This document shows positions 3,383 through 27,553 of a stretch of DNA of 46,088 nt, one piece after another. The notes under the pieces were generated by a model. That model was given only the letters and a program-made list of their open reading frames with translations, did no database searches and had not been told where the DNA came from. The translations under genes were made by a program, and so were the position numbers. Source of the stretch: a virus; the IMG/VR virus record IMGVR_UViG_3300022220_000006, positions 1 through 46,088 of that record; one strand, 5' to 3'. Numbering within the stretch: position 1 is the stretch's first letter; the number at the start of each line of letters is the position of its first letter.

Positions 3383-4237
3383 TTATTGACAAGTGTTACT
3401 ACCATTACCTATTACATCCAGATTTATTGCATAGATTCCGCTATCTAATATTTTACCATTATCTGGTGGTATACTAAGATCGTATGCCACAACCGTCTTT
3501 GGGATGTTTGGATGTTGATCATCATCGTTGCCAAGATAATTGGAACCTGGCTTGTTTATACACGCCATAACTGGAACGTTTCGTATCTTGAATTTTGATA
3601 TGATTCCATCAAAAATAAAGCGTGGGTTGGTAACGTCAGTAGTTTTCTGAGCACCTAAAGTAATTCTAGTTACACCCTGCGGGAACCCATCAATAATTGT
3701 CTTTTCAAAATTATGAATCCACTGTCCAGGTAGTTTTTGTGCGTAATACGCATTCTTTTGAATCTTACCATTGATACGAATAATAGGATGAATTCCATTC
3801 GAACCTACTTTTATTGTATACCATTCTCCGACAATAAGAGCGGTTGTAATAGCTCTAGCTTCAAACATCTTCAATGCAATCTCTGTCTCATTTTCAAACA
3901 AATGATGATCGACTAACCAATCAGCATACATAACAATAAAAAATTGAGCTTCACCAGGTTCATCTAACCAATTCAGAACTCCCGCTGCCATAGCATTACT
4001 GAATTGTTTATTAGCATCTGACAAACGCCATAAAATAGTTGAAGATCCTTGACCAGACGGTACACTATTCATCTTAAACTTGACAATAACGGTAGAAAGA
4101 TCATCAATCTTCCTAATAGCTGGACCAATGTCTCCTACAAGATATGAATCCGTACCATTAAACTCGTAACCGCATTGTTGTGAAAAACCACTGAAACAAA
4201 TGAAAAAACTAAAAGCAAAAAATAACACACTCTTCAT
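3383..4237 (-). CDS. Exported concanavalin/LamG-like protein
   Basis: About 284 aa. I chose the ATG at 4237 because GGGAG lies 8 nt upstream; an in-frame GTG at 4246 is less likely. The N-terminus is a classical signal peptide: MKS, a phenylalanine-rich hydrophobic core, then FSGFSQQ as the likely cleavage site. The mature part begins with YEFNGTDSYL, the usual opening strand of LamG/concanavalin-like sandwiches, and has the later strand pattern expected of that fold (WYTIKVGSNG, FIFDGIISKFKIRN). It lies directly between the head-tail gene and the Ser-rich gene at 3360. A signal peptide is unusual for a virion protein. It may be a secreted lectin, or a virion part with a hydrophobic N-terminus. 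Confidence 0.7.
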   Translation of the reverse strand: MKSVLFFAFSFFICFSGFSQQCGYEFNGTDSYLVGDIGPAIRKIDDLSTVIVKFKMNSVPSGQGSSTILWRLSDANKQFSNAMAAGVLNWLDEPGEAQFFIVMYADWLVDHHLFENETEIALKMFEARAITTALIVGEWYTIKVGSNGIHPIIRINGKIQKNAYYAQKLPGQWIHNFEKTIIDGFPQGVTRITLGAQKTTDVTNPRFIFDGIISKFKIRNVPVMACINKPGSNYLGNDDDQHPNIPKTVVAYDLSIPPDNGKILDSGIYAINLDVIGNGSNTCQ

Positions 4238-4238
4238 A

Positions 4239-4934
4239 TTAAACACTCCCTATGTACAAACCTTCTGTGTTTGGTAACAGATCAAATAAAAAATTTATAT
4301 AATCATCGAACGACATAATCATCGAAGATTTGGATGCTGACCCAAGTTGATACTCATACCGTCCTATCTTCTCCTTAACTTTACCGAATGCATAAGTTTC
4401 TGCATCAATCATTTGTAATGATTTACCGATCAACAATAGCTGAAGCAGTTTTAACATACCTGTCGCTACCGTTCCAAAAACGCCTGTCAATTTAACATTG
4501 TTTAATCCAGGTGGAAAGAAGTTGAGAGTATTAAGATCATCAATATCAGCGATGGTTTCTATTTGGTGAAAATTGGGTTTAATCAATCTAATTACACCGG
4601 TATCGCATGCCCATTCAACTTCTCTATCTTCTCCAGTAAGTGTTAATGATTTAGTTCTTTCATTACTATAAATAATAGTAATATCAGTAAGCTCAATAAT
4701 CGGAACACGTGGACTAATGACGCAACTTTCTCTTTTGCCATCCACATACAATACACTACTAGACTGTTCCCATTGTGTATTTGTCTTACATGCTATCATT
4801 TCAGCAGATGCTAATCTTATATAACTAGGTAGATTGTCCATACAGAATGTAGGATCGATCATAATGAAAAATTCAACTATCTCATCATCGCTTAAAAAAT
4901 CTGTTGCGTTTATCTGACCTAGTTCACAGCTCAT
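4239..4934 (-). CDS. Probable head-tail connector/adaptor protein
   Basis: 231 aa. The N-terminal third is alpha-helical (FLSDDEIVEFFIMIDPTF). The middle has a beta-rich insert, and residues ~145-175 read FPPGLNNVKLTGVFGTVATG followed by a hydrophobic helix LLQLLLIGKSL. This layout (helix bundle, insert giving ...VKLTGxFG, then a long helix) is typical of phage gp6/gp15-type head-completion adaptors. The start overlaps the stop of the upstream gene by ATGA at 4931-4934, so the two are translationally coupled. The position, downstream of the capsid genes and next to fibre genes, fits a neck role. Assignment is by pattern, not by close homology. Confidence 0.55.
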   Translation of the reverse strand: MSCELGQINATDFLSDDEIVEFFIMIDPTFCMDNLPSYIRLASAEMIACKTNTQWEQSSSVLYVDGKRESCVISPRVPIIELTDITIIYSNERTKSLTLTGEDREVEWACDTGVIRLIKPNFHQIETIADIDDLNTLNFFPPGLNNVKLTGVFGTVATGMLKLLQLLLIGKSLQMIDAETYAFGKVKEKIGRYEYQLGSASKSSMIMSFDDYINFLFDLLPNTEGLYIGSV

Positions 4935-5952
4935 TTTTGTTGCTTCCTTAAATATGCTTCTTGATACTTCTTAAATTTTTCGGCAAATGGATAATACATT
5001 TCTTCGGTTCTTTCTTTGGTGGTATCACCAAAATCAAAAGTTGCATCCATTACAGCATTTTCTAGTGGTACATAATCAAAAGTTTTTAAACCACTATTTG
5101 GGTTTGTATTATAAATGTTTAACCCGTATTTTGCACCTTCTTTCTTAATCCACGGCATGTACTCGTCATTCATCCGCTTGTAAGTGGAGTTGTTTCCTTT
5201 AACACCCATATTTGGATCTCTACCATCTGTAAAACAGTATTTGTCTTCGGCCGTCATGTTGCAATCCACACCTACTAAATATATCTTGCGAAATCCCAAA
5301 AGGAACAGAATTCTGATCGCAGATACCATAACAGATCTGTTACCGCCATATTGCGCTGCGCATCCCCAATTAATCGTAGCTTCAGTAAAGAATCTTGGTC
5401 CATGAAACTTTGAATTTCTTGTAAAATAAGTTACATTGGGACATGTTCTAACAACGTGTGTTGCTGGACCCCAGATCCCTCTGTCTTCTATGTATCTTGA
5501 ATCCCATAACTCTTTTTCAGCATTTGAATACGGTGTAAACTTTTGAATTTTGGGATCTAACCAAACAGATAACATAAATCTCGATGGATCATCTACACAA
5601 ATAAACGAATCAGGACGAAACATAGATACACAATTATTCATGCACATTGTGTAACATTTTTGTAATAATGTTGTATCAACTTTTTTTAAACTTGGACCAC
5701 CACCTACTAAAAAAGCGGTTGCACCTTTGAATCTTCCAACGGCAGTATAATCAACATTACGTTAGCAGAAAAAAAGAACGGCTTATATTGATTGAACTCT
5801 CCCGCATAATCATATCCTACCATCCGATCACGATCATGTTTCCATCGTGTACCGTCACCTTTGTCTTGTTTTAACCCACGATCCGCTCTTGATGTTATTG
5901 ATTTAAAATTTGTTTTACCTTCTCTTGGAATACCTTCTGATTTTTTCTTCAT
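4931..5952 (-). CDS. DUF115/MAF-like glycan or morphogenesis enzyme, split by a -1 frameshift
   Basis: Two adjacent reading frames join into one protein of about 340 aa. The upstream frame (5952 to 5707) starts MKKKSEGIPREGKT and reads AGEFNQYKPFFFSAN, then runs out of frame. The other frame continues NVDYTAVGRFKGATAFLVGG, GPSLKKVD and on into MCMNNCVSMFRPDSFICVDD. The switch must occur near 5758-5763, because the second frame has a TAA immediately before it (5762-5764). The G-GGPSL motif and later GGNRSVMVSAIRILFLLGF followed by KIYLVGVDC match the DUF115 family, which includes MAF flagellin glycosyltransferases and phage 'morphogenetic' proteins. A one-base deletion (or error) around TAACG is the simplest explanation; -1 recoding is possible. 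If the split is real and not recoded, the gene is broken. Confidence 0.7.
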
Positions 5953-5963
5953 TCTATCCTCTT

Positions 5964-6704
5964 CTATTGTTGAACTAGTTTATCAAATTCATAGCGATGG
6001 TGTTGCAAGTGATATTGTTTTTGTGGAAACTCTAACTTCACTACCTTATCAAACTTACTCCTAAATGTTCGGTCACTCTTATATGTTATTGATCTAAAAA
6101 AGTTTCTATCCCTGTTTTGGTTTGCATTTACATATATTTCATCTTTTAACTCTTTTGTAAAAACAAACTGCGTATTACCAGCACCTGGTGCAGTAGTAAT
6201 ACGTGTTTCCATATCAGTAGTATACATTTTAATAGTATTTGGTATGTAAGATGGGTAAACAAATCTAGATATAAGTTCATCCATTTTGTCTATATCATCA
6301 GTACTGGTTCTACATACTGTGTACATGTTTGATTCGTTATCTGAAATTTTTTCTACTTCCAAAGCAGCTTCAATTAAAGCATCAAAAAAAAGCGGATCAT
6401 ATACATGATCAGCATCAGCAAATAAAACACAATCGGTATCTGCATCCAAATTTTGCACTTGCCAATTTCTTTGTGAACCTCTAGTGTTAAATTGTGTATC
6501 AAATCCAGTTACGCGTACAAACTCACCAAAGACATCACCAACTAATTGAGAAGTCAATTGTAATCTACTATCTTCTCTATCGAAAGTTGACACCCTTACT
6601 TGTATATCGTACTTAGATACTGCTCTACAATCTTTTATTGAACTTAACATCCAATTAAGACGCTTTTCGTATCCGTAGCAGAACACCATAACTTCAATTT
6701 TCAT
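5964..6704 (-). CDS. Glycosyltransferase, GT-A fold (GT2-like)
   Basis: 246 aa. It begins with a beta strand typical of GT2 enzymes (MKIEVMVFCYGYEKRLNWML) and carries a DxD motif at residues 97-99 within VLFADADHVYDP, where a divalent metal and the nucleotide-sugar would bind. RGSQRNWQ (residues ~75-82) resembles the acceptor/donor loop in this fold. The C-terminal region is rich in basic and aromatic residues. The ATG overlaps the end of the upstream sulfotransferase by 11 nt. Donor and acceptor are unknown. The setting among Ser-rich fibre genes and other glycan genes suggests modification of a phage protein or host surface sugar. Confidence 0.75.
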   Translation of the reverse strand: MKIEVMVFCYGYEKRLNWMLSSIKDCRAVSKYDIQVRVSTFDREDSRLQLTSQLVGDVFGEFVRVTGFDTQFNTRGSQRNWQVQNLDADTDCVLFADADHVYDPLFFDALIEAALEVEKISDNESNMYTVCRTSTDDIDKMDELISRFVYPSYIPNTIKMYTTDMETRITTAPGAGNTQFVFTKELKDEIYVNANQNRDRNFFRSITYKSDRTFRSKFDKVVKLEFPQKQYHLQHHRYEFDKLVQQ

Positions 6705-7407
6705 TCTCTATCCCTTTAAATTCTATTGCTTTTCCACCACGACGTTCCTTAACTTCAAACCATCTATTCACTATTTGCACTTTCGTCTCTGGCAATCTAA
6801 TATCTTTCTCTTCTATCCCAACGAACCTTAAAAATTCCAGCATTTTACTAGATTCGTTTAACTCTTGTATATCAAACAGTTTAATTTGTGAACCATATAC
6901 ATTTTGATAACATTGGATATATGTCTGATATAATTCTATATATTTACTAATTACTTCTTTAAGTAATAACCCCTCACCTAAATCGGGAAAGCATATTTCC
7001 CAATCACTTTTACACCTGCCACGATCTTTTCTGTTCCAATAATTTTTATACTTCATGTCACCTTCGCAACGCTTAGTGACCTTTGTATAATGTGATTTCA
7101 CAGTTTCTTCTAAATCCCTAGTTAATGCATATACTTTTGCATTAGGAAAAACTTTTAATAAATCAGGTAAGTACCAAGTATAAAAAAAGCCATTAAAACA
7201 TAAATACTTTTTATGAAAGTATCTATTCTGTACTGCTTCAATATTTTTATTTAACAGTGCTATATCCTTTTTATATGGCAACTTAGGAGCGTGCTCATGG
7301 GTGAAGGACGAATATTGCTGACTTGCTAGCACATGAGCAATACTTTTACTACCTGTCCGTCCTGGGGATAATCCGATGATCACCTGCTGCGTAAATCCTA
7401 GTGGCAT
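6694..7407 (-). CDS. PAPS-dependent sulfotransferase
   Basis: 237 aa. The N-terminal strand-loop IIGLSPGRTGSKSIAHVL (residues 10-27) is the 5'-phosphosulfate-binding loop of sulfotransferases. The second signature VYALTRDLEETVKSHY (92-107) supplies the Arg97 and Ser105 that hold the 3'-phosphate of PAPS. It would move a sulfate from PAPS to a hydroxyl, most often on a sugar. The start overlaps the upstream cupin by 59 nt, and the PAPS loop would be damaged by choosing a much later start. Length is short but normal for bacterial and phage sulfotransferases. The substrate is not visible; nearby glycosyltransferases make a glycan likely. Confidence 0.85.
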   Translation of the reverse strand: MPLGFTQQVIIGLSPGRTGSKSIAHVLASQQYSSFTHEHAPKLPYKKDIALLNKNIEAVQNRYFHKKYLCFNGFFYTWYLPDLLKVFPNAKVYALTRDLEETVKSHYTKVTKRCEGDMKYKNYWNRKDRGRCKSDWEICFPDLGEGLLLKEVISKYIELYQTYIQCYQNVYGSQIKLFDIQELNESSKMLEFLRFVGIEEKDIRLPETKVQIVNRWFEVKERRGGKAIEFKGIENEN

Positions 7408-7786
7408 TATTAATCTCCATATCGTCTTTATTTGTTATATTACTCATGGACCCGCCACAAGATTCTCTATCAATATCCCCCAGTTCTAACTGTACCCAAT
7501 AAACTTCCAATACCTCAGCATCTTCTACCACTTGGAATTGGTGGTATTCATTTGGCTTAACAACCGTCCTATCACCTGGACCAAGAACTGTTACATCACA
7601 CAGATTATAATCATTCTTCCAAACTAAAATTTTAATCTTACCACTAATCACATAAAACATATTGTGTTTGTGAGTGTGTCGATGTTTTGAACACTGCTTA
7701 CCGGCTTCACACCGCATATATTGCACTTCTGAATTGGCATTGCTGAATACCAAATTTGTGCTTCCCCAGACCTTGCCACTCTTCAT
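7349..7786 (-). CDS. Cupin-domain protein
   Basis: 145 aa. The first cupin motif is clear: H35, H37 and H41 in KHRHTHKHNMFYVISGK, followed by the Gly turn. The second motif is PNEYHQFQV with H82. These residues bind a metal in a small beta barrel. The sequence resembles stand-alone sugar-phosphate isomerase-like cupins (mannose-6-phosphate isomerase type II C-terminal domain). The last ~20 residues (NNATRIYAAGDHRIIPRTDR) overlap the sulfotransferase start and have no cupin character, so the original stop may have been lost. It may act on a nucleotide-sugar precursor. Activity is unproven. Confidence 0.75.
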   Translation of the reverse strand: MKSGKVWGSTNLVFSNANSEVQYMRCEAGKQCSKHRHTHKHNMFYVISGKIKILVWKNDYNLCDVTVLGPGDRTVVKPNEYHQFQVVEDAEVLEVYWVQLELGDIDRESCGGSMSNITNKDDMEINNATRIYAAGDHRIIPRTDR

Positions 7787-7809
7787 GATGTTAACTCCTT
7801 TCCGTTACG

Positions 7810-8052
7810 TTATTTCCTCATCTCTTTGTCATAACATTCATCGTCTTTAGCAAAACGTTGACGACCATCTTTACCCATCATCCATGGATTAGTTAATGTT
7901 CTACCAGAGACTAGTTCATCCTCATCAAATGTCTTTTCAAGGATAACTTTGTTTAACCGTCTTATCCTTCTATTGTTAATCCTCTTATCCTTTTTTTCTG
8001 ATACCGCTGTGGTCACCCCACAAATCGGAGTTTTTCTTCTTGATCTGCTCAT
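7810..8052 (-). CDS. Small basic conserved phage protein, unknown function
   Basis: 80 aa. It begins MSRSRRKTPICG, a start I recognise from a family of short basic proteins found in many phages. It is rich in Arg/Lys in the first half (RINNRRIRRLNK) and in Asp/Glu/Lys toward the end. There is no transmembrane segment, signal peptide or Cys-based zinc motif. It lies 2 nt from the neighbouring glycosyltransferase gene, so it is translated with it. The charge pattern would suit nucleic-acid or virion contact, but no role can be assigned. Confidence 0.65.
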   Translation of the reverse strand: MSRSRRKTPICGVTTAVSEKKDKRINNRRIRRLNKVILEKTFDEDELVSGRTLTNPWMMGKDGRQRFAKDDECYDKEMRK

Positions 8053-8054
8053 GT

Positions 8055-8792
8055 TTACCTAGCATGAAAATAATGTTTGAAGTTCGAATAACCTATACCT
8101 CGACCAAGACGTTCGGCGAGGTAAAATAAGAAAGTGTCGTGTGACGGAACTGGCATCCGGCCATGCCGTATCGAACTGGCATTACATAGGTCAACGGCGT
8201 GTTTAATGAACGCTCCTTTTTGTATGCAACAAAACGATGCAATTCGTTTATGGCCATATCTAGACTCTTTAATGTCATTGGGGTATCTATGTTCTGTCCC
8301 GATGAAACATTCGAATTGTTCGCACCAATCTCCCAATCTGTCAAACCAGTGATAACCGGTTCTGTCATACTCTGGATCTGCTTTGCATTTGGTGTATCTC
8401 CACTTATGTCCAATAATAACTTGTCTATTATATTTTTTGGGTAATTCAAAATTAGGACCTTTTAGATGAGTATCTCCGTCTAATTTAATTGAGTACTTGG
8501 TTTTTACATGCTCATGAACGCCAAATATAAATGCCGATAACATTTCTTCTTTAACTGTTTCGCATTCAGGTTTTGACCAATTGATAAGTTCTATCGGATA
8601 ATTATATTTCTCCAATAAACTCGGTTTGAGTATAGAATTAGCAGCTTGATATGCGTTAGAATGTGCAAATACCACAATTGGAGTGTTTTGAATAAACGGA
8701 TCTGCGTGCCAATTATTCAATGCTCTTTCAAACTTTTTTAAATATCTTCCATTATTAGAAACCGCTGTACAAATCGTGAATTCGTTACCCAT
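8055..8792 (-). CDS. Putative glycosyltransferase, GT-A fold
   Basis: 245 aa. The N-terminus alternates strand and helix as in GT-A enzymes (FTICTAVSNNGRYLKKFERAL). A DxD motif lies at residues 105-107 in YSIKLDGDTHLKG. The C-terminal half has many His, Trp and Tyr residues (HKWRYTKC, GYHWFDRLGDW) and an SHDTFLFYLAE segment that could supply the late acidic/His residues of this fold. Family identity is less certain than for its neighbours. A 19-residue reading frame with a strong ribosome binding site overlaps its start (8785-8844), so its translation may depend on that small frame. Confidence 0.6.
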   Translation of the reverse strand: MGNEFTICTAVSNNGRYLKKFERALNNWHADPFIQNTPIVVFAHSNAYQAANSILKPSLLEKYNYPIELINWSKPECETVKEEMLSAFIFGVHEHVKTKYSIKLDGDTHLKGPNFELPKKYNRQVIIGHKWRYTKCKADPEYDRTGYHWFDRLGDWCEQFECFIGTEHRYPNDIKESRYGHKRIASFCCIQKGAFIKHAVDLCNASSIRHGRMPVPSHDTFLFYLAERLGRGIGYSNFKHYFHAR

Positions 8793-8844
8793 TATGCCAC
8801 CTTTTCAATTTACCGTCACAATCTTCTACTTTACATATTTCCAT
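8785..8844 (-). CDS. 19-aa possible leader peptide with paired cysteines
   Basis: ATG at 8844 is preceded by GGGAGG with about 9 nt spacing, a stronger ribosome binding site than that of the downstream gene. The peptide reads MEICKVEDCDGKLKRWHNG and its stop overlaps the start of the glycosyltransferase at 8792. The CKVEDCDGK part resembles the N-terminal zinc finger of phage HNH endonucleases such as the one at 32278, so it could be a remnant of such a gene. It could equally be only a ribosome-loading device. Too short for certainty. Confidence 0.35.
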   Translation of the reverse strand: MEICKVEDCDGKLKRWHNG

Positions 8845-8849
8845 ATCTA

Positions 8850-9701
8850 CTAAACCTCCCAGCATAAACCTTTTCTAAATGAAGCATCTCTCAATCTGCG
8901 ATCACCAAATGTATCTTTGACACTTATAAATTTTTCATCAACCAGTTCTCGCCACTGTTGGTACCAATATTCGCATAATGGAAAAACCTCACGAAACACA
9001 TGCTTGTAACCATGGTAGTGGACGATAGTTACATATTTTGATTCACCCTTATAGAATTTTGCACTAGCATTCCATGTAGTATTAACCATTATATGAGGGT
9101 ACTTGTGTAGTAATACTTGACAAGCGAGTTCATCAACCATTCTGCGGGTGCAGTTTTCCCTTTGACCTTGTAAAGTAAGATCATGCCATTCTAAGAAAAT
9201 ATTGAAATCGGAATATCGATATTCTCTTGAGAAACCAAAAACGCCAGTATTGACCGCTTTTCCATATTCAACAGCTTTTTCTATTTCTTCTTCTGGTAAA
9301 ACCTTGGACCATTGCCGGATTCTTCTTTCAATAGTTCCTCCCCGCGTAACCCATCCTGTAAAATGTGTAACCAAGAACCCGTATCTTTTGATTAGGTTCC
9401 AAATAGCGTCCAATGAAGATAAAATTAGGGTATCTGAATCTAAATATAGAACGAGATCATAATCGTCTACATATTTACCAAGAGCTGGCTTATCGGCGAG
9501 AGCATTAGTTACTGTGGATTTTTCGGTTTCACGTAGAATAACGTTATACCGTTCTAAACGTTTAAGGAGGTATTCAGATTGTTCTCCTTCATAAGCGAGT
9601 ACGATGTCACCATCATAATGTTTTCTTAAACTTGCTATACTCACTATTAATCGGATTGTACATTTCTGTCCTCGGTTGTAATACAACACACATTTCTTCA
9701 T
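8850..9701 (-). CDS. Glycosyltransferase, GT8-like
   Basis: 283 aa. LRKHYDGDIVLAYEG gives the first Rossmann-like strand-helix unit. DYDLVLYLDSDTLIL carries the DxD (D88, D90) in the sequence context usual for GT8 enzymes, and VNTGVFGFSREYR matches their 'N-x-G-V' acceptor loop. HYHGYKHVF near residue 235 fits the C-terminal HxxGxxK-type motif that closes the active site in GT8. GT8 members move glucose or galactose, including onto glycoprotein sugar chains. It sits directly downstream of the giant serine-rich gene (21 nt gap), which is suggestive of a shared purpose. The donor sugar is not predictable. Confidence 0.8.
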   Translation of the reverse strand: MKKCVLYYNRGQKCTIRLIVSIASLRKHYDGDIVLAYEGEQSEYLLKRLERYNVILRETEKSTVTNALADKPALGKYVDDYDLVLYLDSDTLILSSLDAIWNLIKRYGFLVTHFTGWVTRGGTIERRIRQWSKVLPEEEIEKAVEYGKAVNTGVFGFSREYRYSDFNIFLEWHDLTLQGQRENCTRRMVDELACQVLLHKYPHIMVNTTWNASAKFYKGESKYVTIVHYHGYKHVFREVFPLCEYWYQQWRELVDEKFISVKDTFGDRRLRDASFRKGLCWEV

Positions 9702-9721
9702 ACTTTATTCCTTCATTACAA

Positions 9722-12700
9722 TTACGAACTTGTACTGGTATAAGAAGAATTTTCATCTGCTGCTGGACCAGATACTCTAGTAACGCCATTATTATCTGTT
9801 AAGTGAACAAAACCAACAGAATCATTTCTTGTTCCATTTAACTCATCTAAATTATAAAACGCTGATAATGATGTCAATAACCCAGCCGATAGATCACCGT
9901 ATAGAAGATTCACCCCTCCATTCCATAATTCATTTCTATCAGATTCGGACAGAACTCTATTTTTCCATATACCGACACTAGCCACACTACCAGTCATTTC
10001 TTCTTCAACATTATCTAAAAAGTCTGTATACTTGCCACCAATATAAAAATCTATATTATGATTGTTTATACCGAAAAATGAGTGAGGTTCAATGTCTGCC
10101 GCACCATCATTTACCTGTAAACCTAATTCATTACTAGTTGCATCATGCCAAGCAACAATATGATACCACTTGTTTACTGCTGGAGTAATAGAGTTTAAAA
10201 CTTGATTATTATTATCATTTTGATCTTCAACCATAAATTTGAACTTATTTGCTGGACCGCTCCAAAGCAATTTATATTCACCTTCTTCATCCCCCCACCT
10301 ACTTAAAATTACATGATCCCCGCTAAATGGTGCAAGATCAAAACGCACCCACACTGATACTGTAAAATCAATATTACCCGCTTGAGTGGCAACATTTGAA
10401 CCCCCATTTAAGTATTGTGCACTAGACGCTTCAAAATGTGCAGCAAATGGTGCCGTTCCAGAACTCATACTGCTTGAAGAAGAACTTGAACTAAAACTAC
10501 TTTCACTGGTAAGTGACACTTCAGTTGAACTGGAGCTAGACGAACTAGAACTCGTAGTCAGTAAAAAAGATGAACTACTAGAAGAAGACCAACCGGAAAA
10601 CTCTATGCTTGATGTCGAAAAACTGGACCCTTCCGACGCAACAGGTCCAACTCCCTGTGAAACATCATAAGCGTTAAATTCTTCACCGATAACCCGATCA
10701 TATCTACTTGTTGCTCCTGGTTCATCCAAATGAAAATAACGTTTTATATCTACTTTTAACCCAGCAGACAATTGTGACCACTTAAGACCTTCACCAACAT
10801 TATATAACTCATGAACCTCTTGCTCGGTTAATGTTCTGTGCCATAAACCTGCAAGTGCTAAACGACCAACAAAGGGGTATAGTACTTCCGGCACAGTCGG
10901 ATCATAATCAACACACCCAATATGCACTGTAGTTTGGGGGTTTTCATTAGGTAGAACCTTATGAATACCAGTCGAATGAGGGGTAGTATCAATAACACTG
11001 TCATTAACTGTAATCCCAATAACATCATTGGCACCGTCATGATAAGCAGTTACATAATACCATGTGTTCACTTTAAGTGCTACTGACGATGTTACTTGGT
11101 TTGTGGTATTGATACCATCATCAGAAACTCTAAACCTTAACTCATCACCGTGTTGGTACAATGAAAATGATCGTTCATCTTGAAGTTCCCCTTCCCAATA
11201 ATTGTATATCCCTCTATCCACAATAGATAAACTAGTTGTAAACACCCATATACTGATGGTGAAATTTTGATCTACTGAAGGTATAATCCAATCACTAAAG
11301 TCCTGAACCCAACCTGACCACACTCTTTCAAAAGCAGATGACGCATCAAATACTGTAGCAAAATTAGTGACACTGGAAGAACTTAAAGAGCTAAAAGAAC
11401 TACTTGTGAATGATACTTCAGTTGAACTCGACGAACTAGTGAAAACTTCAGTCGAACTTGAAGTCGCTATTTCTGAAGAACTTGTAGTCAACAATTCAGT
11501 TGAACTTGTTGAACTGCTTGAAGAACTTACAGAACTACTGGAACTTGTCGTCAACAATGCAGTTGAAGGTGAAGAACTACTTGTAGTCAATAATTCAGTT
11601 GAAGATGAAGAGCTAGAAGAAGTACTAGAACTAGTTGTTAACAATTCAGTTGAAGATGAAGAACTTATAGAGGTACTGGAACTAGTTGTTAACAATTCAG
11701 TTGAAGATGAAGAACTAGAAGAACTACTTGTCGTCAACAATGCAGTTGAGCTAGAAGAACTACTTGTAGTCAATAACGCAGTTGAAGATGAAGAGCTAGA
11801 AGAACTACTTGTAGTCAATAATTCAGTTGAAGGTGAAGAACTACTTGAAGAACTTATAGAAGTACTGGAACTAGTTGACAACAATTCAGTTGAACTGGAA
11901 GTTAAGAGTTCTGTTGAACTTGTAGTCAACAATTCAGTTGAACTTGTTGAACTGCTTGAAGAACTTACAGAACTACTGGAACTTGTCGTTAACAATTCAC
12001 TAGAACCAGTAGAACTACTGGTCGTCAATAACGCAGTTGAAGATGAAGAGCTACTTGTTAATGATACTTCAGTTGAACTACTCGTCGTCAATAACGCAGT
12101 TGAAGATGTAGAACTACTTGTGAATGATACTTCAGTTGAACTGGAACTTGTAGTTAATAACGCAGATGAACTTAACGAAGAAGAGGTTAAACTAACTTCA
12201 GTTGAACTGGTACTATAAGAACTGAAACTTGAGGATTGTGCTTCTGTAGAACTACTCGTAGTTAAGAGAAAAGTTGAACTGGAAGAAGAAGACCAACTGG
12301 AAAACTCAACTGTAGAACTGGATGATAAACTCGATGAAGAAGAAAAGGAACTATTTAATTCTGGAGCTGGACCAATGCTATATCCAACTGTATTGGTATC
12401 TGATAAATCGTTTGACCCTTCACTATCATATCTCGTACCAGAAGCTTCTTTCAAATCCCAATATGATATTAAAGACGATTCATATTGTGAAGGTAATTCA
12501 GAACGCTGATAACCATACCCACCATTCCATAATCCATTACGTAGAGATTCAGTCAAAGCGTGACCCCAATAACCGACCATTGAGATTCTACCATCCAAAT
12601 ACGCCGTTCCGTTCACTCTGCCTATTTCGAATTGTGAACTAGTATTAACAAAATTACCCGTATGTGGAGCTGTATTAACCACACCGTCATTAATATGAAT

Positions 12701-15700
12701 TCCAATAAAATCATCAGTCTTATCATAAAAACCAATAACCAAATACCAGGTATTCGCTTTTATAGCACCCACATAAGTATCTTCAACCACTACCGTTGTT
12801 GAACTATCATTGGAAACACGGAAACTAAATTTCTTAGTACTTGAATTGTATAACAGAGAAAATTGTTTATCGGAAGGTTCATTCCATTTGCTAACCAACC
12901 CATAAGAAGTCTCTATAGAATCTAAATACACCCAAGCCGATATCGTCATTGGATTAATATCTGGCTGTAAAGTCGGATTACTGGCAATACTTAAATATTC
13001 CGAGTTTGCGGAAACAAATCTTGCCGATTTACCCAACTCGGTTGATAAAGACAATAATTCTGTCGAAGACGATTCTTCTGTAGAACTAGAGCTGAATGAT
13101 GTATTTAGAGCCGGTTCTGGACCCTTTACTCTTAGTACCCCACCATTATCCGTTAAATCGTTTGACCCGTGTGAATCGAATCTGGTACCACTCAACTCAT
13201 CCAAATTCCAGAATGATTCAAGATTCAACTTTTGAAATTCCGGTACATCTTCATAAGGTAAAGCCATACCCTGATTGTGCAATGCAATACGATCATCGCT
13301 ACTGAGAACTCGGTTACGCCAATATCCAACAGACGAAATTCCTCCCTGCCAATGATTTGCTGCACTAGTTATCTTCCACGCACCAATTAGAAAATCTGCG
13401 CCACCCTGAAATACTGTCTCGTCGTATGTAGCAATAACCGCAGTGTCATCATTAACGGCAATACCGATTTCGTTATTAACTGAATCATGCCACGCAGTTA
13501 CAAAATACCAGGTATTATAATTTACTGTATTAACAGTATATGATGCTGTAATCGTAACTTGCCCATTTCTTGAAACTGACCATATAAACCTATCAGCCGC
13601 ACTTGGGTTAAAAGTTAAACTATATTCTCTTAAATTAGAACTACTGGTCCATTTAGACAAAATAACATCTTCAAACGTAGACCCAGAATCAACGTAAACC
13701 CACGCCGCAAAAGTAAAACTGATATCTCCAGGTGATAAAGAAGCGTTGCTGGCAATTTCCAAATACTGATCCGTTCCGTTAAACGCAGCAGCAAAAGGTA
13801 TTTCCCCTGATGATGAAGAACTACTTACACTTGTTGTACTTGGAGAACTGCTCGAAGTTAAAGAAACCTCTGTTGAGCTAGAACTAAAAGATGATTCAGA
13901 TGTCGTACTTAAAGAGGAAGTAGATGAACTCGTTGTGTTTATTTCACTCGAAGTTGACATTTGTTCAGTTGAACTGGTAGAACTAACGGATGTAGAACTT
14001 TGAGAAGTTGAGCTTAAAGAGGTAGAACTGGTAGACAGGTTTATGGTAGAACTGGTAGACAGGTTTAATGTAGAACTTGTTGTCTCACCAATACCAGAAG
14101 ATGTACTAGTCACACCACAAAATGTAGAACTTGAGGTGGTTTCACTACTCGTTGATTGTATTGAAGTTGAACTAGATGAAAAAGAACTGAATTCTTCCGA
14201 AGATTCTGATGTTGCCAGTTTATAAAACCTACCGGTGCCACCATTATATAATGCTTGTACATAAGCATCTAAATCTTCAGTAGTTGCAAATAATGAACTT
14301 GTATCTCTCCACATATATAGTTCATCAATTGCCGCATTGATCCCTTGAACACCCGCTATTTCCAACCCAACTCTGAATGTGTCAGTAGTCACTGTATCAA
14401 TTGTAAATGAGCTATCATACTCGGCTGCTAATACCCCATCCACATATAATCTCATCAAGTTAAGATCTTCATCAATAAACACTGCAAAATGTGTCCAGCA
14501 ATCAACGCCAAACTCTAAATCAGTAGTTGTAGTGTCTAAACTTATGTTTCCAGTGGTAGTATTAACAAATAATAAATACCCGTCTTTTGGAGATGTTTTT
14601 TGTGTTAACCGAACTTGGAAATCATTTGCAAATACTGTGTCATCAAGAATAAAAGTTTGTGGGTTAACCCAAACAGAAAATAAATTAGATGCTTGTAGAT
14701 TTGTTTCATTATCTATAACTTCTAAATAATCCGAATCCGCATTAAATGAAGCAGCGTTTCCATTGATTCCGTTAACATTCGTGACAGTATTAAATGCGGT
14801 TAAGTTAGCGGTTGATATTCGATCAACAACAGTACCACTTTCGGCATTTTCCATTGACCACACGTGTGCCAGTTTTGTTTCTACACTATCCAATAGTGCA
14901 TGGTTAAATCCTTCACCAGCTTCACTTGTACTAGATGATGACACACCTGAGAGTGCAGTTGAACTAGATTCTGAACTAACTGATATAAATGTACTCGAAG
15001 ACGTAGAAGATTCAGTAGAAAAATTATCAATAGCAATACCATATTTATTACTTGCATATGTATTTATTTCTTCAATTCTCTCTTCACTTATTTTATCCGC
15101 GAATATTAAAATTTCCGCTATATCCCCATCAAAAAAATCTTCTTCAGTAACACCAGTTGCGGGTAACGCACCAACTAGCAACCTAGCTGTTGAATCGTAT
15201 ACAAAACTACCTCCATAGAATAGCGTATCACCAGCTTGATTGTTAAAATAAGTTTTAGCTTCTCCCTCTACATCAAACGCGGTTGCGTGTATATGGAAGT
15301 TTTCAATATCTTGTGCAAAGGTTACATTAGTACCAGATTCACCAAGTCCAGTACGTTTAATTCTTGTATCAACTTCACCACCACCAGAACTATTATATCG
15401 TGCAAACCAACCGGTTGGACTGGCTTCAGGGTCATAATATGCCAATGCTACTTGATCAGATGGATCTGGATTACTAGCAACACCAATAACAAATATTGTA
15501 AATTCTTTACCTTCCAAAGCAGTAATTCTGCCAGCATCTAAGAAATTATCTAAACCATTAAATCTTATTACAGGTTTACCGTGAACAACATTTGTTCGTA
15601 AGATCGGTTGCTCTGATAAGTTTGCATTTATCAAATGATTATCGTGTCCAGATTGATCATGCCACTCTTCTACTGGATCATTATGTACTGATTCAGTAAC

Positions 15701-17644
15701 ACCCGCATCAATATAAGTACCCTTTTCTGCCATATACCAAGCGCGTAAATTGGTGGAATCAAACTCCCCTAGTGTCTGAGAACTAGAAGTGCTTGTAGAC
15801 CCTACCACCTCTGTGCTACTTGTTGTTTCTACAGCAGTACTGCTGCTCAGTGAAGTTTGTTCACCTGAACTGCTCGATGAACTTAAAGTAGATGAACTGG
15901 AATGACTTACCGGTTCACTAAATTCTTGCGAAGTGGTAGATACACTTGATGTAGACAACCCTACTGTAGAAGTAGAACTACTAGTATAACTACTAAATTC
16001 CTGACTACTTGTGCTTAAACTGGTTTCTGACGAAGAATCAACTGATGACAATGAAGAAGTTGCTGACACCACAGACGAACTTGATGAATATGAAGTAAAA
16101 TCTTGTGAAAATTCTTGTGAAGACGATGAAGTAAGACGTTTATAAAATCTACCAGCACCACCATTATACAATCGTCTTACGAAAAGTTCCTCTTCTCCTT
16201 CGTTAGCAAATAACGGATTTGAAGATGTACTTCTTCTCCAAATATAAATTTCATCTACTGTACCGTCTAAATAAAGATCATCCGTAAATCTACGTTGTCC
16301 AATTGTAAATGCTTCTTGCGGATCTAAACCTGATAAACTAAGCGTTACATCAGTATCAGTATCAACTTTTACTCCATCCACATACATAGATTGTATTCCT
16401 CTAACCGGAGAAAAAGACCAAACAACATGATAAAACCTATCAGTTGATTTAATCGCATTTAAATCAGTTGATAAAACACCACCACCATTTGTTTGCCACG
16501 TAAGTGAGTTTTCAAAACCAGCTTGATCTACTGAAGAAAAACCTAAAGATGCTGTACCATTACCGATATCTAATACTCGACCACTATCGCTCAAGTTATT
16601 CATTTTTAACCACAAGGAATATACCAATTCATTTGTTGAATTTGGTATAAGTTCGGTTGCACCACCTTGAACACCTAAATAACTATCAACTCCATTAAGA
16701 AATCTCCCTACCCCGTCTTTTCCTGGTACTGTAACGGGGTTGTTAATCTCTAATAATACTTTACTACCTGCTTCCGGTTGTATAAGTGTGTCATCAACAT
16801 CTTCCATTTTCCATACAACAAACAAATCAGTTTCTATTTCGTCAAGAACAAGATCGTTGAACCCACCCCCGAGCGCACTGGAAGAAGAAGTGCTTGAGCT
16901 GAAAGAGCTGCTTGAACTGGAAGAAGAACTGGTTGTTAATATTTCAGTTGACGATGAACTTAAAGAGGTTGAAGATTGAGAAGTAGTACTTGCAGAAGAT
17001 GGAGAAGTAGAACTTAGAGAGGTTGAAGAACTGGTACTGCTAGATAATGATGATGAACTACTGGTAAATGATACAAATGTAGAACTCGAAGTAAAACTTT
17101 CAAAAGTTGAAGAAGAAGAACTAGTAGATGATGATGTTGAAGAGGTTAACACCGCTGTAGAGCTTGAGCTAGAAGTGGATGAACTCTCACTTTGAGATGT
17201 ACTGCTACTAGATAATGAAGTAGAAGTGTCAAGTGCTATTGTACTACTACTTGATATTGATGTACTTGAAGATGACGATTGAGAACTTGAACTTGATTCT
17301 TCAGTTAATGCGCCAGTATAAGTGGATAATATAATGTATTGACTATTTTCTTCATCAACTATTAATCGGACAGCACTATTACCGCTAGGTAAAGTAAACG
17401 CAGTTAGACCATCTATGGTTACTGATGGGTCATCAGTTATAAATTCAGCAATGCTTGAACCCGTTAACTTAAAAAACACTTCACGTAAATTGTTTCCCAC
17501 AATTGTTGGTAGAACAAAAGTGTCGTCTACCGCCAAATCAAGTTTTACGATTGATCCAAGATCGCTACTACTAAGTGCTTGTCCTGAAAAATATTCTTTG
17601 TAATCAAAGTTAACTGTACTGTTTACTGAACGAAAAAGTGACAT
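9722..17644 (-). CDS. Giant serine-rich protein with about seven LamG-like lectin domains
   Basis: About 2640 aa. The ATG at 17644 forms a TAATG overlap with the previous stop; an ATG two codons earlier (17650) is also in frame. Residues 1-115 form a globular, probably virion-anchoring domain (MSLFRSV then alternating strands). Lectin-like domains start near residues 263, 630, 925, 1285, 1550, 2100 and 2400. Signatures such as AAFNGTDQYLEIASNASLSP, FAAWVYVDSG and a closing GISSVGYWRNRVLS are typical of LamG/concanavalin folds. They are joined by Ser/Thr linkers; the longest runs from about 1770 to 2095 and repeats STELLTTSSS-type units. Domains 4 to 7 are clearly homologous to one another. 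It is likely a fibre or surface adhesin that binds glycans, with linkers that could be glycosylated. Confidence 0.85.
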   Translation of the reverse strand: MSLFRSVNSTVNFDYKEYFSGQALSSSDLGSIVKLDLAVDDTFVLPTIVGNNLREVFFKLTGSSIAEFITDDPSVTIDGLTAFTLPSGNSAVRLIVDEENSQYIILSTYTGALTEESSSSSQSSSSSTSISSSSTIALDTSTSLSSSSTSQSESSSTSSSSSTAVLTSSTSSSTSSSSSTFESFTSSSTFVSFTSSSSSLSSSTSSSTSLSSTSPSSASTTSQSSTSLSSSSTEILTTSSSSSSSSSFSSSTSSSSALGGGFNDLVLDEIETDLFVVWKMEDVDDTLIQPEAGSKVLLEINNPVTVPGKDGVGRFLNGVDSYLGVQGGATELIPNSTNELVYSLWLKMNNLSDSGRVLDIGNGTASLGFSSVDQAGFENSLTWQTNGGGVLSTDLNAIKSTDRFYHVVWSFSPVRGIQSMYVDGVKVDTDTDVTLSLSGLDPQEAFTIGQRRFTDDLYLDGTVDEIYIWRRSTSSNPLFANEGEEELFVRRLYNGGAGRFYKRLTSSSSQEFSQDFTSYSSSSSVVSATSSLSSVDSSSETSLSTSSQEFSSYTSSSTSTVGLSTSSVSTTSQEFSEPVSHSSSSTLSSSSSSGEQTSLSSSTAVETTSSTEVVGSTSTSSSQTLGEFDSTNLRAWYMAEKGTYIDAGVTESVHNDPVEEWHDQSGHDNHLINANLSEQPILRTNVVHGKPVIRFNGLDNFLDAGRITALEGKEFTIFVIGVASNPDPSDQVALAYYDPEASPTGWFARYNSSGGGEVDTRIKRTGLGESGTNVTFAQDIENFHIHATAFDVEGEAKTYFNNQAGDTLFYGGSFVYDSTARLLVGALPATGVTEEDFFDGDIAEILIFADKISEERIEEINTYASNKYGIAIDNFSTESSTSSSTFISVSSESSSTALSGVSSSSTSEAGEGFNHALLDSVETKLAHVWSMENAESGTVVDRISTANLTAFNTVTNVNGINGNAASFNADSDYLEVIDNETNLQASNLFSVWVNPQTFILDDTVFANDFQVRLTQKTSPKDGYLLFVNTTTGNISLDTTTTDLEFGVDCWTHFAVFIDEDLNLMRLYVDGVLAAEYDSSFTIDTVTTDTFRVGLEIAGVQGINAAIDELYMWRDTSSLFATTEDLDAYVQALYNGGTGRFYKLATSESSEEFSSFSSSSTSIQSTSSETTSSSTFCGVTSTSSGIGETTSSTLNLSTSSTINLSTSSTSLSSTSQSSTSVSSTSSTEQMSTSSEINTTSSSTSSLSTTSESSFSSSSTEVSLTSSSSPSTTSVSSSSSSGEIPFAAAFNGTDQYLEIASNASLSPGDISFTFAAWVYVDSGSTFEDVILSKWTSSSNLREYSLTFNPSAADRFIWSVSRNGQVTITASYTVNTVNYNTWYFVTAWHDSVNNEIGIAVNDDTAVIATYDETVFQGGADFLIGAWKITSAANHWQGGISSVGYWRNRVLSSDDRIALHNQGMALPYEDVPEFQKLNLESFWNLDELSGTRFDSHGSNDLTDNGGVLRVKGPEPALNTSFSSSSTEESSSTELLSLSTELGKSARFVSANSEYLSIASNPTLQPDINPMTISAWVYLDSIETSYGLVSKWNEPSDKQFSLLYNSSTKKFSFRVSNDSSTTVVVEDTYVGAIKANTWYLVIGFYDKTDDFIGIHINDGVVNTAPHTGNFVNTSSQFEIGRVNGTAYLDGRISMVGYWGHALTESLRNGLWNGGYGYQRSELPSQYESSLISYWDLKEASGTRYDSEGSNDLSDTNTVGYSIGPAPELNSSFSSSSSLSSSSTVEFSSWSSSSSSTFLLTTSSSTEAQSSSFSSYSTSSTEVSLTSSSLSSSALLTTSSSSTEVSFTSSSTSSTALLTTSSSTEVSLTSSSSSSTALLTTSSSTGSSELLTTSSSSSVSSSSSSTSSTELLTTSSTELLTSSSTELLSTSSSTSISSSSSSSPSTELLTTSSSSSSSSSTALLTTSSSSSSTALLTTSSSSSSSSSTELLTTSSSTSISSSSSTELLTTSSSTSSSSSSSTELLTTSSSSPSTALLTTSSSSSVSSSSSSTSSTELLTTSSSEIATSSSTEVFTSSSSSTEVSFTSSSFSSLSSSSVTNFATVFDASSAFERVWSGWVQDFSDWIIPSVDQNFTISIWVFTTSLSIVDRGIYNYWEGELQDERSFSLYQHGDELRFRVSDDGINTTNQVTSSVALKVNTWYYVTAYHDGANDVIGITVNDSVIDTTPHSTGIHKVLPNENPQTTVHIGCVDYDPTVPEVLYPFVGRLALAGLWHRTLTEQEVHELYNVGEGLKWSQLSAGLKVDIKRYFHLDEPGATSRYDRVIGEEFNAYDVSQGVGPVASEGSSFSTSSIEFSGWSSSSSSSFLLTTSSSSSSSSSTEVSLTSESSFSSSSSSSSMSSGTAPFAAHFEASSAQYLNGGSNVATQAGNIDFTVSVWVRFDLAPFSGDHVILSRWGDEEGEYKLLWSGPANKFKFMVEDQNDNNNQVLNSITPAVNKWYHIVAWHDATSNELGLQVNDGAADIEPHSFFGINNHNIDFYIGGKYTDFLDNVEEEMTGSVASVGIWKNRVLSESDRNELWNGGVNLLYGDLSAGLLTSLSAFYNLDELNGTRNDSVGFVHLTDNNGVTRVSGPAADENSSYTSTSS

Positions 17645-18396
17645 TAGCATAAACTCTGGCTTGTTGTTGAACTAGAAGTAAATGAAACAAAGGTGCTAGA
17701 ACTACTAGTTGAAAACGATGAAGAAGAAGTAAAACTAGAAAACTCTTGTGAGGTACTCGATGTTGACCTATTGATTGTTGAACTAGAAGAACTATAAGAA
17801 GAGGTTTCTGACACCTCAGTACTGGAACTAGAACTTGTTTCAGATAATGCACTACTTGAACTGGAAGTAAAACTTACCGCAGTACTAAACGAACTTATAG
17901 AAGTGGAACTTTCTGAACTTGTTGACAAACCAATAGTTGAACTACATGAAGATTTGGACAATTCTGAACTCTCACTAGAGGAAGTGGAACTGGAAGTTTC
18001 TAATACAGAAGAACTAGAAAATTCTTCCACAGAAGTAACAAACTTTCCTTCTAATATGTGCCAACGGTTTGCAGCTTTCTCAGTTGACAATAAAGCACCA
18101 TTATGTCCTAGAACCAGTTGAAACGTTGCTGTGACACCACCATCAATATTCTCTCCCCAATGAGGAAATAAAGTAACTAATCTACCGTCTTCCTGTGTAA
18201 AAACAGAGGTAAATGCAAACGTTACCATTGATTCATACATAAACTTGGTATGAGGTAACCTTATAAACTGCACATTGTTACCTATGAGTACAAGCTTATT
18301 GGCTATGGTCTCATCTAGTTCCGTATACAGATCATTTATTGTTACAATTCCCGCCAACTGTAACGGGTTTAGTAAGCTTCGAAACAGATTTATCAT
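17644..18396 (-). CDS. Serine-rich protein with globular N-terminal domain
   Basis: 250 aa. Residues 1-118 form a globular domain starting MINLFRSLLNPLQLAG, similar in its first residues to the giant protein (MSLFRSV). From residue ~125 the chain is almost all Ser/Thr with the same short motifs (SSTFVSFTSSS, TEVSETSS) and ends SQSLC. It has no lectin domain. The stop overlaps the start of the giant gene (TAATG), so the two are translated together. The start overlaps the end of the sugar-dehydratase gene by 65 nt; the match of MINLFRS with MSLFRS supports this start. It may be a short partner or capping subunit of the giant fibre. Confidence 0.75.
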   Translation of the reverse strand: MINLFRSLLNPLQLAGIVTINDLYTELDETIANKLVLIGNNVQFIRLPHTKFMYESMVTFAFTSVFTQEDGRLVTLFPHWGENIDGGVTATFQLVLGHNGALLSTEKAANRWHILEGKFVTSVEEFSSSSVLETSSSTSSSESSELSKSSCSSTIGLSTSSESSTSISSFSTAVSFTSSSSSALSETSSSSSTEVSETSSYSSSSSTINRSTSSTSQEFSSFTSSSSFSTSSSSTFVSFTSSSTTSQSLC

Positions 18397-19312
18397 TTAG
18401 TATACTTTTTGTAAAACGATTTCCAATCAATGAATTGTTAACTATATATCTATTGTTGCTGTGCATATCAAATAAATCTGAAAAATTTCTTTCCTCAACA
18501 AGTTTCGTATACAGCGACAATGTGTACTCTAACTGTGACGTTTCAGAAAATGCATAATCACCAGTACACTCTAACATCATATTGTCTTCTGGCCGTACAT
18601 ATAGTTCGTAATCAGGACCAAGCATCCAAGATACATAATTGGCAATCATAAATCTTGACATCTCACAATATTCAAATTCTTCTGTTGTTGGTAATCCACA
18701 CTTCTGTATATTGGTTAATCCATTCACTATCCAATCAGTAAACTTGGATACGTGGGAAAAACATAGGTGCCGTAACAATTCATCTTCAACCATGTACCGA
18801 TTGTATTGAAAAAACTCTGATAACATATTATTAACAAAAAGATCGCTTCTTACCCGCAATGTTCCACCATATAACTCTGGTGTTGGTATAACGGCAATAT
18901 TTCTATTGAGTTGTTTTTCTATCCCATTTACCAATAAGGTTTGATAGTTGTAATAAAGACCATCATCCTTATTTAGATTTTCATCCATCGTTGTGAACAC
19001 CACCGTATCGGTTTCTATTAATTGTCCACACTCAAGAATCTTATCAAAATAAATATCTTGATACTTCTTAAACGATTCTTCACTATAAAAACTGCCAATA
19101 TCGATAGTGGAGCAAATGAAAATTATTTCATACTCTTCCAACTCCATTAATTGGATATCGATAAAGTTTGTACTTTTGACCTTCGCTTTGACAGGTAAAT
19201 AAGCAGAGCTAAAAACGTTAGTATCATAAACAACCACCTCATGTTTCTGTTCTAACTTGTTTGTTAAGTGAGATCCGAGGTAGCCACACCCCCCAATAAT
19301 CGCAATTTTCAT
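18332..19312 (-). CDS. NAD-dependent epimerase/dehydratase-like protein (extended SDR)
   Basis: About 326 aa from the ATG at 19312, which has AGGGG upstream; an in-frame ATG at 19351 would add 13 residues without a better site. MKIAIIGGCGYLGSHL is the dinucleotide-binding GxxGxxG loop, and HEVVVYDTN supplies the acidic residue that selects NAD. PELYGGTLRVRSD and later blocks follow the nucleotide-sugar epimerase layout. The catalytic YxxxK is not clear: the expected place reads YYNYQTLL, so activity is uncertain. It may make a nucleotide-sugar for the glycosyltransferases in the same transcription unit. Confidence 0.7.
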   Translation of the reverse strand: MKIAIIGGCGYLGSHLTNKLEQKHEVVVYDTNVFSSAYLPVKAKVKSTNFIDIQLMELEEYEIIFICSTIDIGSFYSEESFKKYQDIYFDKILECGQLIETDTVVFTTMDENLNKDDGLYYNYQTLLVNGIEKQLNRNIAVIPTPELYGGTLRVRSDLFVNNMLSEFFQYNRYMVEDELLRHLCFSHVSKFTDWIVNGLTNIQKCGLPTTEEFEYCEMSRFMIANYVSWMLGPDYELYVRPEDNMMLECTGDYAFSETSQLEYTLSLYTKLVEERNFSDLFDMHSNNRYIVNNSLIGNRFTKSILNDKSVSKLTKPVTVGGNCNNK

Positions 19313-19416
19313 AACATTTTCCCCTGTAGCACATAATTCTATATCGTACACTATAACATAAAAATTAGTATGTCAAGATGACAGCTCATAATATATCTAC
19401 TTCAATTGTGTTTTAA

Positions 19417-26826: not shown

Positions 26827-27553
26827 CTATTATTCCCCTATTAATTAACTTTTCTATCACTTCTATATCTTCTGGTCTATCAACTCCGATCATATACTTA
26901 TCACAAATAGTAACATGAATTGTATAGTTGTTGTCTAATAAACGTAGTTGTTCTAAGTTATTATCTATCTCATTCACTGTTCTGGGTAATTGAATAAAAT
27001 CTTTTAGCACCTGTTTCTTAAATGCGTATATACCAACATGTTGCTTCGGATAATGTTTTTTGCCAAACTGTTCCCACGGATATATTCTTCTGGCAAACTG
27101 CTTTGCAAACCTGTATTCATCGTGAACCACTTTCACCACATTACGCTTAAACATTTCCAGATAATATGAATGCATCATTACTCCTAATGTCTCAACATCT
27201 GCTTCATATTCGATCATGTTGTCAATCATATTATTAATCATGTAGGGTTTAAGTAGTGGCTCATCACATTGTAAATTAAACACAATATCCGCATCATAGT
27301 GTTTATTTGCTACTTCAGCGACTCTATCAGAACCAGTTTCATGTTGGTCGGTTTTATGACAATTCATTGCTCTCGATACACAGAATCTATAAATCTTATC
27401 TGAATCTGTAGCAACACATACGTGATGTAAATCTGATGCTATTGCTGCTGCGTAAACCCACTGAATCATAGGTCTAAAGTTGATCTCCGCTAAAACTTTT
27501 CCAGGAAACCGTTCTGAATTCATCCTTGCGGGAATTATACCTACGGTACGCAT
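26813..27553 (-). CDS. kdsB: CMP-Kdo synthetase-like cytidylyltransferase
   Basis: About 246 aa from the ATG at 27553, which has AAGGAG 8 nt upstream. VGIIPARMNSERFPGKVL is the CTP-binding loop, HETGSDRVAEV and FNLQCDEPLL the metal and sugar contacts, KQHVGIYAFKK and EQLRLLD the conserved C-terminal blocks, and MIGVDRPEDIEV the closing motif. These are the hallmarks of KdsB. It would couple CMP to Kdo or a related keto-sugar. Its position between the two terminase genes is odd, since packaging genes are usually adjacent. The product could feed the phage glycan genes or alter host lipopolysaccharide. Confidence 0.85.
   Translation of the reverse strand: MRTVGIIPARMNSERFPGKVLAEINFRPMIQWVYAAAIASDLHHVCVATDSDKIYRFCVSRAMNCHKTDQHETGSDRVAEVANKHYDADIVFNLQCDEPLLKPYMINNMIDNMIEYEADVETLGVMMHSYYLEMFKRNVVKVVHDEYRFAKQFARRIYPWEQFGKKHYPKQHVGIYAFKKQVLKDFIQLPRTVNEIDNNLEQLRLLDNNYTIHVTICDKYMIGVDRPEDIEVIEKLINRGIIDATI

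Follow-up and report, generated by a model that had tools for sequence, protein, structure and literature searches.

A tailed-phage gene cassette proposed to O-glycosylate the phage's own serine-rich virion proteins

Introduction

Serine-rich repeat protein (SRRP) loci of Gram-positive bacteria place a giant Ser-rich surface adhesin beside several glycosyltransferases (GTs), including GT8 types, while chloroviruses and mimivirus encode GTs that glycosylate their capsids or fibrils without use of the host secretory route. Maf proteins (MAF, DUF115) act in the cytoplasm on flagellin (PMC4065374), and virion glycosylation of the capsid and tail tube has been described for mycobacteriophages Che8, Corndog and Myrna (Freeman et al. 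2023, as cited in PMC12363180). Here we describe a cassette of MAF-like, GT8-like, GT-A and GT2-like genes in an incomplete IMG/VR record, IMGVR_UViG_3300022220_000006, a tailed-phage fragment of 46,088 bases (the window), and propose that it glycosylates the polyserine proteins encoded around it.

The locus shares features with each of these systems. As in the mycobacteriophages, phage-encoded GTs would modify the phage's own virion proteins, which is shown there and proposed here; there the enzymes act on capsid and tail tube, whereas here the targets would be polyserine LamG and neck proteins. The enzyme set is also a different one, and the phages described here, unlike mycobacteriophages, probably infect Verrucomicrobiota or their relatives. 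Likeness to the MAF flagellin GTs lies in a fold match (Protein Data Bank (PDB) entry 5mu5), weak profile similarity, a cytoplasmic setting (PMC4065374) and, in some genomes, nearby genes for cytidine monophosphate (CMP)-sugar cytidylyltransferases, but the phage proteins are shorter, the proposed acceptors are polyserine virion proteins instead of flagellin, and the donor may be CMP-3-deoxy-D-manno-octulosonic acid (CMP-Kdo) rather than a nonulosonate. The giant Ser-rich protein adjoining GT genes recalls the SRRP loci, although it would belong to a virion and not a cell surface; no cell-wall anchor is seen, and neither a GtfA/GtfB-type (GT4) initiating pair nor SecA2/SecY2 export appears among the Pfam matches of window proteins from 1 to 28.4 kb. 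Chloroviruses and mimivirus likewise encode their own GTs, but are eukaryotic viruses with other enzymes and targets. The literature searched contains no report of a phage system with this enzyme set, polyserine targets and neck tail. A preliminary description of this DNA had held that a phage version using the linkers between LamG domains would be new; that phages can glycosylate themselves is established (PMC12363180), and it is this enzyme set and target that would be new.

Results

We propose, at a probability of roughly 0.6, that the phage encodes a cytoplasmic cassette with which it O-glycosylates Ser-rich proteins of its own. The proposal draws on gene content and order, a conserved cassette, enzyme folds, placement in a structural operon, and co-occurrence and proximity with polyserine proteins. 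The minus strand of the window carries a tailed-phage morphogenesis operon whose upstream half encodes, in order, one phage gene, kdsB, a split terminase, portal, protease and an HK97-type capsid. The capsid gene is followed by a homing endonuclease, a short-chain dehydrogenase/reductase (SDR), the Ser-rich proteins SERC and SERB (LamG), the GT8-like enzyme, the GT-A enzyme (with DxD motif), a small open reading frame (ORF) and a cupin, and then by a sulfotransferase, the GT2-like and MAF-like enzymes, a head–tail adaptor, a small LamG-like protein and a third Ser-rich protein, SERA. The genes listed in the preliminary description exist, all on this strand, and the GTs lie within or near the structural operon, as in phage virion self-glycosylation. 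The Ser-rich proteins and the adaptor are as follows (G and L numbers are handles of this analysis).

1–3360, minus strand: SERA, a head–tail adaptor-like N terminus (about residues 1–95) with a Ser-rich extension, running off the contig (N-terminal alignment with the L035 neck protein)
4239–4934, minus strand: head–tail adaptor (connector) gene adjoining the cassette (L035 homologue against phrog_442 head–tail adaptor, 3e-5)
9722–17650, minus strand: SERB, 2642 residues, seven LamG domains parted by Ser-rich tracts (881 residues) (Laminin_G_3, PF13385, 1.4e-65)
17644–18396, minus strand: SERC, a small N-terminal domain with a Ser-rich C terminus (267-residue homologue in G001)

Serine makes up 38.9% of SERA, which has three tracts totalling 723 residues and two repeated beta-type domains, 23.2% of SERB, whose homologue in G001 has 2142 residues, and 28.7% of SERC overall; individual tracts reach 46–58% Ser and 9–20% Thr. 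Three Ser-rich proteins do enclose or adjoin the enzyme cluster, as previously described, but the term 'fibres' used for them tells only part of the story, because SERA is not simply a fibre. Its N terminus aligns with the L035 neck protein, itself a match to the phrog_615 head–tail adaptor (3.3e-5), which makes SERA a neck protein extended by Ser-rich sequence. The adaptor at 4239–4934 is linked to its own L035 homologue by phmmer (1.3e-39). The adaptor to which SERA belongs bears a polyserine tail in the window, G010 (L035) and G071 (L379). Judged from the adaptor family, a tract on a head–tail joining protein should sit on or near the virion surface, at the neck, unless it is cleaved off.

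All six Ser codons are used by the Ser-rich proteins, and the tracts part folded domains. Tandem DNA repeats (period 18–111) encode TELLTTSSS-type units in SERB and lie mainly at 11543–12170, so that slippage accounts for only part of the Ser tracts. A STE[VA]SETS / [LQRI]EFSS[FW] motif occurs in the tracts above shuffled expectation in the window, G001, G010 and L383; it is a candidate recognition motif only, since tandem duplication and common descent can also yield it.

The enzyme genes comprise a core and several accessory members.

4931–5647, minus strand: MAF/DUF115-like enzyme, C-terminal part (phrog_4603, 3.8e-5; 49% identity to the L035 protein by tblastn)
5752–5952, minus strand: MAF-like N-terminal part in another frame, coordinates approximate (tblastn of intact homologues)
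5964–6704, minus strand: GT2-like glycosyltransferase (window protein 0.0067, below the Pfam cut-off; profile of relatives)
6694–7407, minus strand: sulfotransferase, accessory (PF17784, 2.3e-6, above the Pfam cut-off; homologue in G001)
7349–7786, minus strand: cupin (WbuC-like), a recurrent cassette member (PF07883, 8e-9, above the Pfam cut-off)
8055–8792, minus strand: GT-A fold glycosyltransferase with an invariant DxD (alignment A7; AlphaFold model with predicted local distance difference test (pLDDT) score 88.6; Foldseek)
8850–9701, minus strand: GT8-like glycosyltransferase (PF01501, 9.7e-5, just under the cut-off)
18332–19351, minus strand: SDR or nucleotide-sugar epimerase-like gene, ATG probably at 19312 (PF01370, 0.0023, and galE, 2.1e-6, both below cut-off)
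26813–27571, minus strand: kdsB, CMP-Kdo synthetase (PF02348, 3.4e-40; TIGR00466, 159.7 bits against a cut-off of 155.2)

Taken alone, the GT8, GT2, MptE/MAF and SDR proteins of the window fall below the Pfam cut-offs, and profiles of relatives and models add support; in this way the GT8, the DUF115/MAF enzyme and the second DxD GT of the preliminary description are all backed by models or profiles. The GT8 profile (A5) matches glycogenin-2 (0.0019) and a Skp1 galactosyltransferase (0.0093) in the PDB, and D88-x-D90 of the GT8-like enzyme is invariant in the alignment. The GT2 profile (A8), with an invariant DxD, matches the glycosyl transferase 5tze (5.8e-7) and the probable beta-1,3-GlcNAc transferase 6h1j (0.0078), which we take to be TarS and TarP. 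Foldseek relates the model of 8055–8792 to GT-A enzymes including B3GNT2, xyloside xylosyltransferase 1 and UGGT (best E 1.5e-7), so a GT-A fold with a DxD metal-binding motif is predicted. The window GT2, GT-A and GT8 proteins contain no membrane-helix-like segment, which fits cytoplasmic protein glycosylation.

The MAF-like protein of the window scores 0.0043 against MptE/MAF, below the Pfam cut-off, and its L035 homologue 1.8e-6 against PF01973 (28.3 bits, curated cut-off 34.6). Scans with the window protein by itself gave nothing in viral_contigs or phages, and the MAF profile (A6) gave no PDB sequence match. The AlphaFold model of the L035 protein (pLDDT 79) has as its top Foldseek match in the PDB the MAF of Magnetospirillum (5mu5; E 8.7e-5, probability 1.00), followed by archaeal (MJ) HPPK and then CstII sialyltransferases; with low to modest TM-scores (0.32–0.36 by query), the model points to a MAF / GT42 sialyltransferase-type fold. 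An ORF at 4931–5647 had been described as the MAF gene; the MAF-like enzyme is present, but that ORF holds its C-terminal part only. The frame breaks near 5752–5758 relative to homologues, likely through assembly error, although the window copy could conceivably be dead. The terminase large subunit at 25077–26826 is also split into two overlapping frames and is a single ORF in relatives; together the two breaks make assembly indels likely.

Among the other enzymes, the cupin scores 7e-7 against cupin_WbuC, under the family cut-off, and has homologues in L034, L385, L386, L389 and L391, while the SDR is kept shortly after the capsid gene in relatives. The sulfotransferase named in the preliminary description is present but was seen in just one relative (G001) and lies outside the conserved core. 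The CMP-Kdo synthetase placed there in the same direction is a true kdsB, lying between the terminase and the upstream phage gene and co-directional with the cassette.

A core set of MAF-like, GT8-like, GT-A and GT2 genes is seen again in 22 further viral contigs. G001 was first found via the tract motif and only later by the GT8 scan; capsid scans and GT8/MAF profile scans brought further relatives. The gene order of G001, capsid-ORF-SDR-SERC-SERB-GT8-DXD-cupin-ORF-SULF-GT2, matches that of the window at 40% identity in GT8 and 65% in the capsid. Capsid, SDR and GT genes stand together in the same order in G001, G010, G071, L002 and L034, and G010 and G071 share the order SDR-GT8-GT2-MAF-adaptor-Ser-tailed neck protein; in the window, as in G010 and L379, the cassette sits between capsid and head–tail adaptor. 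A fusion of GT8 with GT-A is present in L002, L034 and L035. More distant phages (G011–G014, G072–G086) combine MAF, GT8 and GT-A, often with GT2 and cupin, in shuffled order, and MAF and GT8 are both present in 18 of 21 records tested. GenBank phages searched with DNA, GT8, sulfotransferase and SERB gave no match.

The slot directly after the capsid gene varies. The ORF there is a GT2-type glycosyltransferase in L002 and L034; in the window a homing endonuclease-like gene (19417–20901) separates capsid and SDR, a place taken in relatives by an ORF that is GT2-type or unassigned. In L023 and L024, of the same capsid lineage, the capsid gene is directly followed by different glycosyltransferases, GT4/GT2-like by eye, which makes the slot a likely hot spot for glycan genes.

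The preliminary description called for a survey of Ser-rich proteins with and without these enzymes, which we ran by scoring as a Ser tract any ORF with at least 50% Ser over 30 residues. After de-duplication and with the window left out (n = 22), 17 cassette contigs contained such a tract (G001, G010, G011, G013, G014, G071, G073–G081, G083, G086), compared with 0/14 random viral contigs drawn by an arbitrary 15-mer (0/1180 ORFs, 1.12 Mb; Fisher p = 3e-6). A further 80 random pieces also gave none (0/664 ORFs), and removing the window's lineage left 14/19 (p = 1.4e-5). By the yardstick set in the preliminary description, this outcome is clearly favourable. G072 was seen over 180 of its 186 kb, and G071, G074–G078, G080, G083 and G086 as flanks of at most 10 kb. 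MAF matches were absent from all 50 records tested (30 random and 20 from a repeated-TCN scan); that scan was rejected as a Ser-positive set, its matches lying mostly in other frames.

Within genomes, Ser-tract genes cluster near the cassette: 14 lie within 2.5 kb of it (175 kb) and 20 elsewhere (1,259 kb), a 5-fold enrichment (p = 2e-5) that is approximate, as are the following figures, because nine loci were read as flanks only. It becomes 4.1-fold without the window lineage (9 versus 16; p = 0.0018) and 3.4-fold when G014 is also re-anchored on its GT8 gene (p = 0.007). Such clustering speaks against a pure host effect. From the Ser side alone, through the repeated-TCN scan, the only clear multi-gene polyserine phage found was G476 (548 kb, three polyserine proteins), so that Ser tracts outside cassette phages are poorly sampled; G476 encodes two MAF-like proteins, one near a cytidylyltransferase-like (CMP-sugar) ORF, and gave no GT8 match.

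The genome matches of the GT8 profile are all metagenome-assembled genomes (MAGs), seven from Verrucomicrobiota and one from Planctomycetota, and by these sequence matches the cassette phages probably infect Verrucomicrobiota or relatives. In L402 the MAF gene is followed after 156 bp by a Ser-rich protein that matches LamG and, weakly, RHS; L403 has a Ser-rich ORF 646 bp before its MAF gene, and in L404, the Planctomycetota MAG, a kdsB-like gene overlaps its MAF and GT-A/GT8 neighbours. This suggests a module, with a CMP-sugar donor, common to such bacteria and their phages, although MAG binning errors or prophages may lie behind the cellular versions. The capsid profile gave only weak matches in 388 Verrucomicrobiota genomes, so prophages do not settle the host, and two strong MAF matches in 289 such genomes indicate that MAF is no core host gene. 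A repeated-WSN scan of the same number of Verrucomicrobiota genomes (289) was dropped as unspecific (Thr, Arg, Cys and antisense runs).

Elsewhere in the window, a small LamG-like protein (3383–4246) with a hydrophobic signal-like N terminus (MKSVLFFAFSFFICFSGFSQQ) and no Pfam match adjoins the head–tail adaptor. On the opposite (plus) strand, 29021–33651 holds HAD phosphatase-like, formyltransferase-like (PF00551, 6.8e-4), Methyltransf_24 (1e-15) and FkbM methyltransferase (TIGR01444, 7e-23) genes, interspersed with an exonuclease and an HNH gene; their products could help to tailor the glycan. The cassettes of L399 and L404 likewise have Methyltransf_24 or FkbM genes close by. A thymidylate synthase lies beside an AIR synthetase-like (PurM) gene at 36963–38734.

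Discussion

In the proposed mechanism we infer the tracts as acceptors, together with the sugar, the benefit and the order in which the enzymes act. Soluble MAF-like, GT8-like, GT-A/DxD and GT2-like enzymes, active while the late genes are expressed, would build a glycan on Ser/Thr of the polyserine proteins, namely the LamG proteins whose genes lie between capsid and head–tail adaptor, and the adaptor's own tail. CMP-Kdo synthetase may supply the donor, CMP-Kdo, to the MAF-like enzyme; GT8, GT-A and GT2 would extend the glycan, and the synthesis or decoration of sugars would fall to SDR, cupin and sulfotransferase. Neck and fibres would then bear a hydrophilic, mucin-like brush, resistant to proteases, that would space the lectin domains and shield the virion or tune binding.

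Several observations weigh against this proposal. Five of the 22 cassette contigs (G012, G072, G082, G084, G085), which may be incomplete, lack a Ser tract; among the 17 positives, G073 (0.50) and G083 (0.53) are borderline, and G075 and G083 have MAF but no GT8 match. Ser genes lie 20–75 kb from the cassette in G011, G073, G079 and G081, and G002, whose sequence stops 4.5 kb past the capsid gene, has Ser tracts and SDR but no MAF/GT8. In the window itself the MAF gene is frameshifted. The control contigs were random and not host-matched, which leaves room for a host or habitat effect whereby phages of Verrucomicrobiota and Planctomycetota tend to both polyserine proteins and sugar genes with no functional link between them. 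That all eight GT8-profile genome matches come from these two phyla agrees with such an effect; we consider it very unlikely in view of the clustering inside the same contigs and the very short spacings (L383, 33 bp; L386, 73 bp; L389, 3 bp; L402, 156 bp).

Phage GTs that alter host surface sugars are well known, serotype-converting GTs among them, and the enzymes here might modify a host surface glycan (lipopolysaccharide (LPS) or capsule), excluding rival phages or altering the receptor, with the Ser tracts as ordinary flexible linkers. The GT2 profile matches TarS/TarP-type enzymes, which glycosylate wall teichoic acid, and Kdo, whose activating gene kdsB the phage carries, is an LPS sugar. 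Yet no membrane GT, flippase or polymerase occurs among the genes scanned, the cassette sits within a late structural operon between capsid and adaptor, and Ser-tract genes cluster with it inside genomes, which together make this explanation unlikely, if one to be taken seriously. The cassette might instead glycosylate another virion protein, such as the capsid or the LamG domains, and leave the polyserine tracts as unmodified spacers. Capsid and tail tube proteins are glycosylated in mycobacteriophages (PMC12363180), and some cassette phages have no Ser tracts; the proximity and co-occurrence statistics, by contrast, are specific to Ser-tract genes, and we regard a different virion target as distinctly unlikely. 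Phage DNA glucosyltransferases exist and the window encodes a thymidylate synthase, so modification of phage DNA bases, or idle cargo, was also considered. DNA glycosylation was rejected as the cassette's role because the search turned up no DNA-type GT; base modification is also a poor fit for MAF, GT8, sulfotransferase and kdsB, distant phages conserve the core, and this explanation is hardly credible.

Self-glycosylation of polyserine virion proteins may form part of a wider pattern. A portable MAF-GT8-GT-A-GT2 module could be present in many uncultured phages, mainly of Verrucomicrobiota/Planctomycetota-type hosts, where it would build a mucin-like O-glycan on polyserine tails, including that of the head–tail adaptor, from a CMP-Kdo-type donor, and in the host bacteria would also act on their Ser-rich surface proteins of RHS/LamG type; we advance this broader picture tentatively, at clearly less than even odds. 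To our knowledge, the polyserine-LamG proteins of metagenomic phages have been assigned no purpose. A linked glycosylation module, if true, would explain them as substrates, would extend virion glycosylation well beyond mycobacteriophages and would provide compact, soluble enzymes with which designed Ser tracts could be O-glycosylated.

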